This document shows, piece after piece, positions 1,352 through 11,036 of a stretch of 11,036 nucleotides of DNA (positions are counted from its first letter, which is position 1; each line of letters opens with the position of its first letter). The translations under genes were made by a program, and so were the position numbers. The notes beneath the pieces are model-generated. The model ran no database searches, was not told where the DNA came from, and saw only the letters and a program-made list of their open reading frames with translations. The DNA lies in the NCBI GenBank assembly GCA_016839865.1, contig JAEOTN010000087.1, positions 1-11,036 of the forward strand, read 5' to 3'. The stretch comes from Promethearchaeota archaeon. GTDB taxonomy: Archaea; Asgardarchaeota; Lokiarchaeia; Sigynarchaeales; MK-D1.

Positions 1352-1567
1352 ATGGAAGTAATTAAATACTCAAGTATTGTTACATGCCCACAATGTGGAT
1401 TTAAGGAAGAACATCCGTTGTCTGATGATGTGTGAAAACAAGCATACGAGTGTCAATATTGCCATAAAACTATTCACGGTGGAAATAATAAGCATGGATG
1501 ACGTTGAATTTACTGTGCTTTTGGAGATACTCCTTGAGTAGCAATACAAAAAAGCCAGATAGGGTAA
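1352..1567 (+). CDS. small selenoprotein with four in-frame UGA codons, GDCCVxC-type zinc-ribbon family
   Basis: From ATG at 1352 one frame runs 71 residues to TAA at 1565-1567. Its only interruptions are TGA at 1433, 1499, 1505 and 1535 (residues 28, 50, 52, 62). With U for TGA the motifs are TCPQCGF (C12, C15), DDVUKQAYECQYC (U28, C34, C37), HGURUIYCAFG (U50, U52, C55) and PUVAIQ (U62). This lines up without gaps in the motif regions with the small family I recall as the GDCCVxC-domain (seleno)proteins, whose pattern is CPxCG, DACxxxYECxxC, GDCCVxC, then KCPPxQ. U28 falls on the DAC cysteine, U52 on the second Cys of GDCCVxC, and U62 on the CPP cysteine; U50 is two codons before U52. Total length also fits the family. 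The biochemical role is not established; redox or metal binding through UxUxxC is an inference. The start follows a TATA-like box by 21 bases and has no Shine-Dalgarno site. The alternative, a decayed gene, is unlikely because no TAA, TAG or frameshift is present and the stops sit at or beside Cys positions. Confidence 0.85.
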
Positions 1568-1614: not shown

Positions 1615-1640
1615 CTCCCGCAAGGAGAAAACTATACCCA

Positions 1641-4158: not shown

Positions 4159-4692
4159 ATGACAGACGAAAAGAAAGCTCATCCACCTTATACAGTAGGA
4201 ACGAAAGTGAATGAAAAGGAATTCATAAATAAGGATATTACTGCTACCTTATGGCAACCAATGATGCAATATTCGTGGGCCCTTGGTCGTGCGAATGTTA
4301 AATTCCTTGAAGGATTGAAAGAAGCGAAGATCTACGGAATAAATTGCCATACATGCAAGAAGGTCATAGTTCCACCAACGATGTTTTGTCCATATTGTTA
4401 TGATCCTACAGAAGGTTGGGTAGAGCTACCAGATACAGGGATAATAGAGACTTTCTCGATTTCCTATTTAGATCCGAATGCAAATCGCATCGAAGAACCA
4501 ATTTTAATTGGTGTAATAGATCTCGATGGAGCTCCTGAACACTATGGGTTCATGCACTATTTCGATGAAATGGACAAAGATGAGATTCACATCGGCATGA
4601 AAGTGAAGGCAGTCTGGAAACCTGAAAAAGAACGAACTGGTTCGATAACGGATATTAAATATTTCAAGCCGTTAAAGGAAGGAGGGAAGTAA
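4159..4692 (+). CDS. DUF35 OB-fold/zinc-ribbon acyl-CoA-binding partner protein A
   Basis: 177 residues, with the two-domain build of DUF35 (Zn-ribbon plus OB-fold). After an N-terminal helical segment with WQPMMQYSWALGRANVKFLE (32-51), the ribbon carries C63-x-x-C66 (CHTC) and C77-x-x-C80 (CPYC). The OB-fold then begins GIIETFSISYLDP and continues through PILIGVIDLDG, ending in a strand with TDIKYFKPL. In the archaeal acetyl-CoA acetyltransferase/HMG-CoA synthase complex, and in SCP-x/ChsH2 and BbsAB pairs, DUF35 proteins hold the thiolase and contact CoA. The position directly behind two thiolase genes argues for the same role here. All four zinc ligands are present. Confidence 0.88.
   Translation: MTDEKKAHPPYTVGTKVNEKEFINKDITATLWQPMMQYSWALGRANVKFLEGLKEAKIYGINCHTCKKVIVPPTMFCPYCYDPTEGWVELPDTGIIETFSISYLDPNANRIEEPILIGVIDLDGAPEHYGFMHYFDEMDKDEIHIGMKVKAVWKPEKERTGSITDIKYFKPLKEGGK
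4681..4686 (+). promoter_or_regulatory. Shine-Dalgarno site for DUF35 protein B
   Basis: GGAGGG, coding for the last residues of DUF35 A, lies 7 bases before the ATG at 4694. The upstream stop (4690-4692) is one base from that ATG. Confidence 0.75.
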
Positions 4693-8871: not shown

Positions 8872-9024
8872 TCACTTACTCTTTTTCCTCTTTCTAACTT
8901 TCAACCGTATCACTGCGAATAATAATGGTAAAGCTAATTTTGATCTGAAAAAGGCAATTTTTTTCTTCGAACCAGTCATAATTTTCCCCCATTCGGTCGT
9001 AAATGCATCTCCTTTTATATTACA
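8872..9024. repeat. diverged direct repeat, left copy (partner 9918-10070)
   Basis: The DNA of the reductase remnant and the 3' end of the intact reductase form a same-orientation repeat of about 150 bp on both sides of the methyltransferase gene. Shared blocks include GCTAATTTTG, CTGAAAAAG, GAACCAGTCAT and AAATGCATCTCCTTT. The repeat is explained by gene homology, not by a mobile element. Confidence 0.8.
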
Positions 9025-9066
9025 ATTAGATTTTGAGAAGAGTTCAAAATATTGTGAGTACTTTAC
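8872..9066 (-). pseudogene. C-terminal remnant of a second geranylgeranyl-reductase-family gene
   Basis: On the minus strand an open frame ends in TGA at 8872-8874 and encodes KGDAFTTEWGKIMTGS, then KKKIAFFRSKLALPLLFAV. By hand alignment the last 50 residues match the last 50 of the reductase at 9918-11036 at 36 positions, with no gap and with the stop at the same place. Homology is clear for 8872-9024 and fades upstream; the frame meets a stop (TAA) at 9067-9069, just before the methyltransferase start. At the identical residues roughly ten codons differ synonymously, so the copy diverged as a working gene before it lost its front. There is no FAD-binding part, hence no enzyme activity is expected. 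A short expressed tail peptide cannot be excluded but has no good start. Confidence 0.85.
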
Positions 9067-9073
9067 TTAATTT

Positions 9074-9925
9074 ATGGGCAAAAAGACTCAAACTGAGATG
9101 GACGAGGATTTAACGAAAAAATTAGTGATGGTTGACGATTCATTTAGAGAAGTTATAAGACGAATCCCTCCTCAAGATAAACACGCACCGCATCCTTATT
9201 GGGTTCATAATGAGTTGATTGAACGATATTTAGTATTAAAAGATATTGATGTCAAAAAAGGAATGAAAATTTTGGACATAGGTTGTGGTGCGGATGCTCT
9301 TACATCCATCGTATTAGCTTATTTTGTAGGGGAAGAAGGAATAGTGGTGTCTGTGGATCGAGCAAGGTGGTCAAGGTTTGAAAGAATGGTTTCTTACGTC
9401 CAGTATCAAGATCGGATCATTCCATTGAAACTTGATGCTTCTGAATTACCAATACCATATCGATCGTTTGATTTAGCAGTTATAGTCCATGGAATCAGGA
9501 GTATGGGAGAAAATGAGGAAATAGAAGTTATTTTGAGAGAACTTCGACGAGTGGCATCCAAAATAATTATTGCTGAATCTTTACCAATTGCATATAATCC
9601 TGCTCAACAAGCTCATCTTGATATGTATAATCTTAGAGAACCAGTTTTTGAGGCAGTATTTGGGAAGAGAGATGATTTTAATTACCGAACAGAAGAAGAA
9701 CTTACCAAAATCGTGGAATCCAGTGGAGGAAAGAACATCAAGTCAAAGATTATTAATTTTGATCTAGCACATTATCTAGCTTTCTTTCCGAAAGAAATCA
9801 TCAAAAAAATTAAAAATGAACAATTGAGGAATAAATATCTGAAAAAATGGAGGGAAGCTTACACCCAACTGCAGGAAGTAGGAGAAGCTCATCCACCGGT
9901 TTGCATTATATCGTTTGCTATCTAA
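9074..9925 (+). CDS. class I SAM-dependent methyltransferase
   Basis: 283 residues with a Rossmann-type methyltransferase core. Motif I is MKILDIGCGADALT (64-77), the acidic residue ending strand 2 is D95 (VVSVDRARWSRFERM), D121 lies in KLDASELPIP, and strand 4 reads SFDLAVIVHGIRSMGE (131-146), followed by ELRRVASKIIIAE. The order and spacing are those of UbiE/Coq5-like or small-molecule methyltransferases. The N-terminal 60 residues and the C-terminal helical part (about 175-283) are not recognised and probably make the substrate pocket. No Shine-Dalgarno site precedes the ATG; an AT-rich stretch near 9046-9053 could be the TATA box of a leaderless mRNA. It ends convergently with the reductase gene, overlapping it by 8 bases. 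A role in lipid or quinone modification is suggested only by that neighbour. Substrate unknown. Confidence 0.85.
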   Translation: MGKKTQTEMDEDLTKKLVMVDDSFREVIRRIPPQDKHAPHPYWVHNELIERYLVLKDIDVKKGMKILDIGCGADALTSIVLAYFVGEEGIVVSVDRARWSRFERMVSYVQYQDRIIPLKLDASELPIPYRSFDLAVIVHGIRSMGENEEIEVILRELRRVASKIIIAESLPIAYNPAQQAHLDMYNLREPVFEAVFGKRDDFNYRTEEELTKIVESSGGKNIKSKIINFDLAHYLAFFPKEIIKKIKNEQLRNKYLKKWREAYTQLQEVGEAHPPVCIISFAI

Positions 9926-10070
9926 TCATGTTCTTCTTATTTCTTTTTAGTCGTATCGCTGCGATTAATAGGGGTAATGCTAATTTTGGTCTGAAAAAGC
10001 TTACTTTTTTCTTTGAACCAGTCATTATTTTACCCCATTCAGTCATAAATGCATCTCCTTTCTTATTGCA
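9918..10070. repeat. diverged direct repeat, right copy (partner 8872-9024)
   Basis: The 3' end of the intact reductase gene, homologous to the remnant on the other side of the methyltransferase. Both copies end at the equivalent stop codon position (TAG here, TGA in the left copy). Confidence 0.8.
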
Positions 10071-11036
10071 AACTTCTGCAAATGCATCGAGAAATATTGG
10101 ACGTTTCACAAACACATTGATCATTCTTTTAGACCATTTGAAGTCATTGCCGAATGACTTCATCCATTCTTTTTGATATTTTGAGAACAGTTGTTTATCG
10201 AACCGATTGGAAGACAATGCTTCTTTAGCAACATTCGCGGCAATTTCGGCAGCATCCATCGCGTATTGGATTCCTTCACCTGTTAAAGGATCTACATGTC
10301 CAGCAGCATCCCCTACAATCATTAAATTATCTCCGTAACTTGTTTGAATTCCACCAAATCGAATAGGTGCAGCTTTCATCTGTTCGAGTTTTGGATTTGG
10401 GCCTATTTTTTCGCTCATGGGGGGAAATTTCGTAATGAATTCATGATGAAACACTTTTAAATCGTCTGTTGTTGCTTTTCCTCCAGGAATGATGTAACAA
10501 CAATATCCAATATCTCCATTTGCCTGCCTAAATAATGAACAATAGCCTGGAACAAGCTTTGGGGGGTAATAACACACCCCATCGTAAGGATATTGATGAG
10601 ATCCCGCTTCAATATAAGCTCTGCTACAAATCGCTTGTGGAGGAGTCTTAACATATCCCAATGTTCTTGCTAATCGTGATGACGATCCATCTGCAATTAT
10701 CAATATCTTAGCTCTAAAGCTTCTAACATTTGATTTAGATGAAATTGTCCATTCAGAATTCTCAGGTGAAAAGACTGCATTTGATACTGAGTATTCTTCC
10801 ATTAATTCCGCTCCTTTTGTTATAGAAGCTTTGATCATCATCTCATCTAGTATTTGTCTTTTAATTGCTATTACAAGGTGACTTTGTTGGGTTGATGAAT
10901 CTCCGATATATTCAATGCCACTTGGGCTAACAAGTCCCCCAATTGCTGCCCAATGTCCTTTCCCTTCAGCAAGAACTTTTTGCATTACGCCCATACGTTC
11001 CAGATGAATTTGAGCTCTTGCAGTAATCGCATCACC
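9918..11036 (-). CDS. geranylgeranyl reductase family FAD-dependent oxidoreductase, 5' truncated by the window edge
   Basis: The frame stays open to the right edge (upstream of the ATG at 10994 it reads GDAITARAQIHLERMGV), so the gene starts outside the window and 372 residues are visible. Seen are VIADGSSSRLARTLG, the second FAD motif of this family, and IVGDAAGHVDPLTGEGIQYA, which contacts the flavin, followed by the AAEIAANVAKEAL helix. The middle segment has GVCYYPPK and GYCCYIIPGGK. The N-terminal GxGxxG dinucleotide site and the family's early motif are beyond the edge. Archaeal members saturate geranylgeranyl chains of membrane lipids; others reduce quinone or pigment side chains, so the exact substrate is open. 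The C-terminus (KKKVSFFRPKLALPLL) is basic and hydrophobic, possibly membrane-associated. It overlaps the convergent methyltransferase by 8 bases. A diverged copy of its 3' end lies at 8872-9066. Confidence 0.88.
   Translation of the reverse strand, partial: GDAITARAQIHLERMGVMQKVLAEGKGHWAAIGGLVSPSGIEYIGDSSTQQSHLVIAIKRQILDEMMIKASITKGAELMEEYSVSNAVFSPENSEWTISSKSNVRSFRAKILIIADGSSSRLARTLGYVKTPPQAICSRAYIEAGSHQYPYDGVCYYPPKLVPGYCSLFRQANGDIGYCCYIIPGGKATTDDLKVFHHEFITKFPPMSEKIGPNPKLEQMKAAPIRFGGIQTSYGDNLMIVGDAAGHVDPLTGEGIQYAMDAAEIAANVAKEALSSNRFDKQLFSKYQKEWMKSFGNDFKWSKRMINVFVKRPIFLDAFAEVCNKKGDAFMTEWGKIMTGSKKKVSFFRPKLALPLLIAAIRLKRNKKNMIR

Follow-up and report, generated by a model that had tools for sequence, protein, structure and literature searches.

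The window, by which we mean the full 11,036-nt contig stretch analyzed here, carries on its forward strand a reading frame (1352-1567) interrupted by four UGA codons, which stands alone ahead of a thiolase/OB-fold cluster. The preliminary description had placed TGA at codons 28, 50, 52 and 62 of this frame, without an earlier TAA or TAG or a frameshift, and translation bears this out. Read with TGA as U, the frame gives a predicted protein of 71 residues, MEVIKYSSIVTCPQCGFKEEHPLSDDVUKQAYECQYCHKTIHGGNNKHGURUIYCAFGDTPUVAIQKSQIG, and ends in a TAA stop (1565-1567). The UGA codons at 1433-1435, 1499-1501, 1505-1507 and 1535-1537, all on the forward strand, correspond to predicted Sec28, Sec50, Sec52 and Sec62. 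Ordinary gene finders would fragment such a gene. TGA terminates two of the nine other main genes in the window, which shows that UGA serves as a normal stop codon elsewhere in this DNA.

Searches of the window revealed no tRNA (ARAGORN), no Rfam match at E 1 and no mer gene. A 149-nt direct repeat (8877-9025 and 9923-10071, 80% identical) overlaps the gene at 9918-10994 at its 3′ end and looks like the remnant of a duplicated gene copy.

Family membership and relatives with four UGA codons

The predicted protein had been assigned to the GDCCVxC-type family, with U28, U52 and U62 on positions where relatives have Cys, and both claims hold. Against the NCBIfam profile of the family, NF041374, it scores 52.1 bits with C in place of U, and with X at the four UGAs it still exceeds the curated cut-off of 40 bits (40.2 bits). 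Cys or Sec stands at each of family columns 12, 15, 28, 34, 37, 52, 55 and 62. In ungapped alignments Sec28 and Sec52 fall on invariant family Cys columns and Sec62 on a further family Cys column: among 31 Cys-type rows compared, Cys is present at 28 and 52 in all 31 and at 62 in 30. The probability that at least three of four random codons (of 71) would fall on the nine Cys columns is 0.0055. The position of Sec50 is alignment-dependent, as it occupies an Asp column in ungapped alignments and corresponds to the first Cys of “CC” if a one-residue insertion is allowed.

The literal letters GDCC, which give the family its name and are not a criterion of the model, are absent. In their place the window protein has GURUIYC, and U-x-U-x-x-C occurs in all 15 UGA genes (the window gene and the 14 relatives described below), preceded by a longer loop than in the Cys relatives, which show C-C-x-x-C. 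The latter motif was found in 120 of 120 database relatives among the matches listed (of 1438). The UGA genes thus form a variant group, not typical NF041374 members; with stops unscored, only one of the other 14 (from genome G886) rises above the profile cut-off. Direct searches of genome contigs, viral contigs, phages and a 5.8-billion protein set with the recoded protein gave no match, and a search of plasmids gave only Cys relatives at <60% identity (36.6% among the 20 matches listed).

Scanning for relatives with the window thiolase led to no more than two loci, both distant. The neighboring OB-fold protein (4159-4689) shares 71% and 68% identity with Candidatus Lokiarchaeota proteins, which fits an Asgard origin. 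Relatives were reached through an archaeal centre locus with 394 relatives, the OB-fold protein being detected at E 1e-20 in 14. Other than the centre, 13 relatives bear the OB-fold protein, and in 6 of these the number of Ras-type GTPase matches ranges from 8 to 38. Our main set comprises the 227 genomes in the phylum of one OB-fold-bearing relative, G141. From the OB-fold protein and Ras-type GTPase matches, we infer that this phylum is Asgard. The OB-fold match in G141 itself (G141:C9:30249-30659) has one in-frame TGA, and the SepSecS match of that genome is weak.

The NF041374 profile gave 43 matches in the 227 genomes: 26 stop-free genes, 13 with exactly four TGA codons, one partial match with three (G885) and three zinc-ribbon proteins. 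A profile built from four UGA genes showed that the G885 gene has the fourth TGA as well, with a TAA stop of its own after it; beyond this completion the profile yielded no further family member in the 227 genomes. The three zinc-ribbon matches (G848, G867 and G882) lack the motif, as established for G848 and G882 by reading the sequences, and were set aside; a weak match in G977, with three TGA and two TAA codons, was rejected on reading because it has no family motif. Weak matches in G605, G960 and G995 were left out of the family counts. The pattern is therefore all-or-none, with 14 four-TGA loci in 13 genomes, 26 all-Cys genes, and none with one to three TGA codons in the 227 genomes. Two other sets, 150 relatives of G002 and 395 genomes from the phylum of G001, each contained five with a match above the cut-off, and none of these ten has an in-frame stop.

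As supporting evidence, the preliminary description had named homologs in which residues 28, 50, 52 and 62 are Cys or in-frame TGA, and all 14 further UGA loci have TGA at the four positions, so that these columns are TGA in 15 of 15 genes. The kinds of evidence that it had named as speaking against the gene, namely TAA, TAG or frameshifts in relatives or a lack of conservation, were not seen in any of the 14. The remaining Cys residues are encoded by TGT or TGC throughout, at columns 15, 34, 37 and 55 in all 15 genes and at column 12 in 14 of them, the remaining gene lacking its start. The 14 relatives are 35-52% identical to the window protein over its whole length, and the motifs past the first UGA are kept. 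Over nine close UGA pairs, which are not independent of one another, 19 of the codon changes upstream of the first UGA are synonymous and 28 are not; the corresponding counts are 20 and 15 between the first and the fourth UGA (the best-kept stretch), and 6 and 16 past the fourth. The last of these counts indicates that the C-terminal tail is little constrained. Judged from these sequence comparisons, conservation is the decisive evidence for the predicted four-UGA gene.

We built a tree and alignment from 46 rows: the 15 UGA genes and 31 Cys genes, 22 of them drawn from the Asgard set of 26 and the remaining 9 from outside it. The tree is unrooted, and draws on few columns with long branches, that of the window gene included; in it the UGA genes form one group (support 97/99, and recovered in 96% of 200 bootstrap trees), with the Cys gene of G795 nearest to it (92/95).

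The SECIS-like hairpin and Sec synthase

Downstream of the gene on the same strand is a predicted type I eSECIS-like element (1577-1612) that starts 39 nt past the last UGA and nine bases past the stop. It consists of an AUGA (1577-1580), an upper stem of eight pairs with an A-A mismatch at its base (1581-1589/1602-1610), the apical loop AUAAACCAUUGG (1590-1601) and a GA (1611-1612). The published Asgard type I model (PMC11227280) combines an [A/G]UGA..[G/A]A core with an upper stem of 7-15 bp, in which up to two mismatches are allowed, and an apical loop of 8-20 nt, all lying 3′ of the gene, and the window element fits it. We also used a strict version with an AUGA..GA core, a stem length of 8-12 with no more than one mismatch, and a loop length of 8-14 with at least three A in the first five loop positions. 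This version has one site on the two strands of the window, at 1577, compared with an average of 0.1 in 100 shuffled windows.

Within 160 nt past the last UGA, the looser model was found in 14 of the 15 UGA genes and the strict version in 12, starting 39-53 nt past that codon. In the fifteenth gene (G872) the element is of type II, with six pairs in its ministem; 0 of 200 simple base shuffles gave such an element. All 26 Cys genes served as controls, and the same scan past their last Cys gave neither strict nor looser sites (0/26 for each). Restricting the search to sequence 3′ of the nominal stop left strict sites in 11 and looser sites in 12 of the 15 UGA genes, against shuffle expectations of 0.045 and 0.425 and, again, none in the 26 Cys genes.

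The stem also covaries. Across 14 aligned type I hairpins (12 distinct rows), both sides vary at eight of nine stem pairs and 92.6% of cells pair; the covariation of 0.833 compares with a shuffled mean of 0.279 (0 of 500 shuffles as high) and with values of at most 0.320 for slid versions. RNAalifold, unaided, predicted eight of the nine pairs. Two alternative hairpin alignments were excluded as a gap fell inside the stem. Folded by itself to minimum energy, this stretch of the window retains the upper stem, with the AUGA paired to other bases. A covariance model made from ten of the 15 hairpins gave the window hairpin 8.5 bits (E 1.6, not significant). The same model had an 18.1-bit match 5′ of a Cys-type gene (L027, 1332-1367), which is probably due to chance.

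A second small hairpin, CTCC-CGCAA-GGAG (1615-1627, forward strand), directly follows the SECIS-like element. By eye, hairpin-like sequence stands directly past the element in several relatives as well, in some as CGAGA..TCTCG; such sequence could act as a terminator or belong to the element itself. Two relatives have a fifth in-frame UGA, located about 12 nt before the SECIS-like element in G910 (L064) and formed by the UGA of the AUGA core in G916 (L057). If translation ends there, a UGA so near the SECIS is not read as Sec.

SepSecS (PF05889, E 1e-20 or better) was detected in 138 of the 227 genomes, some of the weaker matches probably being paralogs. It is present in 12 of the 13 four-UGA genomes and in none of the 26 Cys genomes (Fisher p 3e-9, with kinship ignored); the four-UGA genome with no SepSecS match is G874. 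Among the eight genomes closest by the OB-fold protein (61-73%), seven have SepSecS.

Gene neighbors and candidate readings

Genes for mercury resistance adjoin four of the 14 UGA loci, in three of the 13 genomes. In G897, a thioredoxin-like gene, the four-Sec gene and MerB occur in that order on two near-identical contigs, which may be strain variants, and MerA then follows on one of them. MerB lies 202-203 nt downstream of the four-Sec gene (PF03243, E 3e-19 and 6.5e-20), and MerA scores 539 bits with TIGR02053 against a cut-off of 454. These loci (L062 and L065) form a predicted archaeal mercury cluster, whose MerB has a LexA-like DNA-binding stretch. In G885, MerA (511.9 bits) begins 207 nt downstream of the four-Sec gene, and in G916 a 199-residue N-terminal piece of MerA is found downstream. 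MerA above the cut-off was detected in 3 of 80 genomes tested; two of these belong to the 13 four-UGA genomes and one to a group of 41 others, and the 26 Cys genomes gave none. The MerA gene of G908 has no four-Sec gene in the surrounding 13 kb examined; it adjoins a gene for a 741-residue protein with an N-terminal heavy-metal-binding-like motif (L107, 4622-8593).

Other UGA loci have an arsenite methyltransferase (ArsM) gene upstream (G886) or a heavy-metal ATPase downstream on the opposite strand (G923, identified by scan, and G910, by likeness), and the neighbors of the remaining loci are of no clear kind. Plasmid pRA2 has a bacterial Cys relative in fourth place within a merR-merT-merP-GDCCVxC cluster. 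Given the mer neighbors of some relatives and the pRA2 cluster, we favor a soft-metal (mercury) role for the predicted protein, although taken by itself this role falls just short of an even balance.

The main rival is a redox relay, in which the four-Sec protein would carry electrons between a thioredoxin- or glutaredoxin-like protein and a disulfide reductase. Consistent with this, the thioredoxin-like gene lies about 108 nt upstream of the four-Sec gene in both G897 copies (in the one copy scanned, its best family match, at 36 bits, is under the cut-off). A glutaredoxin-like gene sits beside four of five archaeal Cys relatives examined, one of which is also flanked by a thioredoxin-reductase-like gene, both kinds being named from reading the sequence. 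Most selenoproteins characterized so far adopt a thioredoxin-like fold and carry a redox motif, according to the accessible part of a 2026 review (PMC13188914). However, MerB, which cleaves carbon-mercury bonds, was found in only 1 of 57 genomes tested and there solely beside four-Sec genes, which points to metal, as does the bacterial relative within a mer cluster. We consider the relay conceivable but distinctly on the doubtful side; the redox and metal roles are compatible, not exclusive.

Reading of UGA is often partial in other systems, and four UGAs under one hairpin are demanding. Only some of the codons might therefore be decoded, giving short peptides alongside the complete protein, a mixture perhaps tuned by selenium supply. 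Yet all 15 genes retain the four UGAs, and in none has a Cys codon taken the place of any of them; each codon thus appears to be under selection, and we regard partial decoding as improbable.

That UGA acts here as a stop, as it does for two other main genes in the window, leaving a pseudogene or a 27-residue peptide with relic similarity downstream, is scarcely credible against the identical UGA positions in 14 relatives that have no TAA, TAG or frameshift before the protein end, the identity kept past the first UGA, and the covarying SECIS. Equally negligible is a genome-wide reassignment of UGA to Cys or Trp, for which we found nothing beyond the location of UGA at Cys columns; TGA-terminated genes in the same window, TGT or TGC at the five other Cys positions in all 15 genes and the SECIS-like element speak against it.

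Reading of the four UGAs as Sec in the predicted 71-residue protein is, on the comparative evidence above, almost certain. The fuller reading, in which the hairpin at 1577-1612 directs Sec incorporation and the product likely binds soft metals such as mercury for detoxifying enzymes, seems to us probable. Sec-tRNA would be made by the PSTK/SepSecS route, and archaeal EFSec would deliver it to each of the four UGAs under the one 3′ SECIS. Cys 12, 15, 34 and 37 show the CPxCG..CxxC pattern of zinc ribbons, in line with weak sequence matches to the zinc ribbons of RNA polymerase subunits; they would stay cysteine and hold zinc. As UGAs never fall on the zinc-ribbon Cys, the active site is left to Sec28, Sec50, Sec52, Cys55 and Sec62, which could form a selenol/thiol cluster that catches Hg(II), organomercury or arsenic, and bound metal might then be passed on to detoxifying enzymes. 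Mercury is bound more tightly by selenols than by thiols. More tentatively, and with the balance tilting somewhat against so specific a picture, the Asgard protein may be a tetra-selenol “selenium claw,” in which four active-site Cys were converted to Sec as a set under one eukaryote-like SECIS, the zinc-ribbon Cys were kept, and mercury or methylmercury is handed to MerB and MerA.

Comparison with known selenoproteins

NF041374 corresponds to GOS_B, which the accessible part of the 2026 review gives with a single Sec and without an archaeal mark (PMC13188914). Eleven Sec-containing GOS_B sequences from ocean metagenomes appear in the available portion of an earlier report (PMC2398784), and another names the family without further detail in the part at hand (PMC9312934). 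The window protein resembles GOS_B in its profile score and in the pattern of CPxCG, Cys/Sec28, CxxC, xxC and Cys/Sec62. It differs from GOS_B as described in these portions in having four Sec rather than one, U-x-U-x-x-C for C-C-x-x-C, a longer loop before this motif, an archaeal host and, in the UGA genes, a eukaryote-like 3′ SECIS. The review, in its accessible part, counts 119 families, the vast majority with one Sec and a small subset with two or three, and 11 archaeal families (PMC13188914).

For Asgard archaea, the available part of a 2024 survey describes seven families, namely SelD, FrhA, HdrA, FrhD, Prx-like, AhpF-N-like and DsbA-like (PMC11227280), and that of the paper by Sun and colleagues names HdrA, Prx and MvhD (PMC9723677). 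The UGA genes share with the Asgard selenoproteins of the survey an eSECIS-like 3′ element, the AUGA..GA core, an A-rich loop and the same Sec synthase, but the GDCCVxC family is absent from the seven described there. Selenoproteins listed in connection with mercury or other metals, in the portions of the sources at hand, likewise contain Sec, but belong to different families and have one or two Sec. No mention of a four-Sec GDCCVxC protein was found in the open-licence literature searched. On the accessible parts of these sources, four-Sec GDCCVxC proteins are a new form within a known family, and prior mention in the 2016 Lokiarchaeota selenoprotein paper is possible.

The gene adds to the closest archaeal kin of eukaryotes a selenoprotein family absent from the portions of the inventories examined. 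With four Sec in just 71 residues, it goes beyond the one, rarely two or three, given for prokaryotic families in the accessible sources. It also offers a small, naturally occurring example in which a single eukaryote-like SECIS apparently serves the reading of several UGAs. No SBP2 was found in the Asgard group, according to the available part of the survey (PMC11227280), and the gene makes the reading of multiple UGAs in one archaeal message directly testable. The family occurs as either all-Cys or four-Sec, in step with whether Sec synthase is present, and clearly illustrates how residues can switch together as a set; the mer neighbors of some relatives suggest selenium-based handling of mercury.
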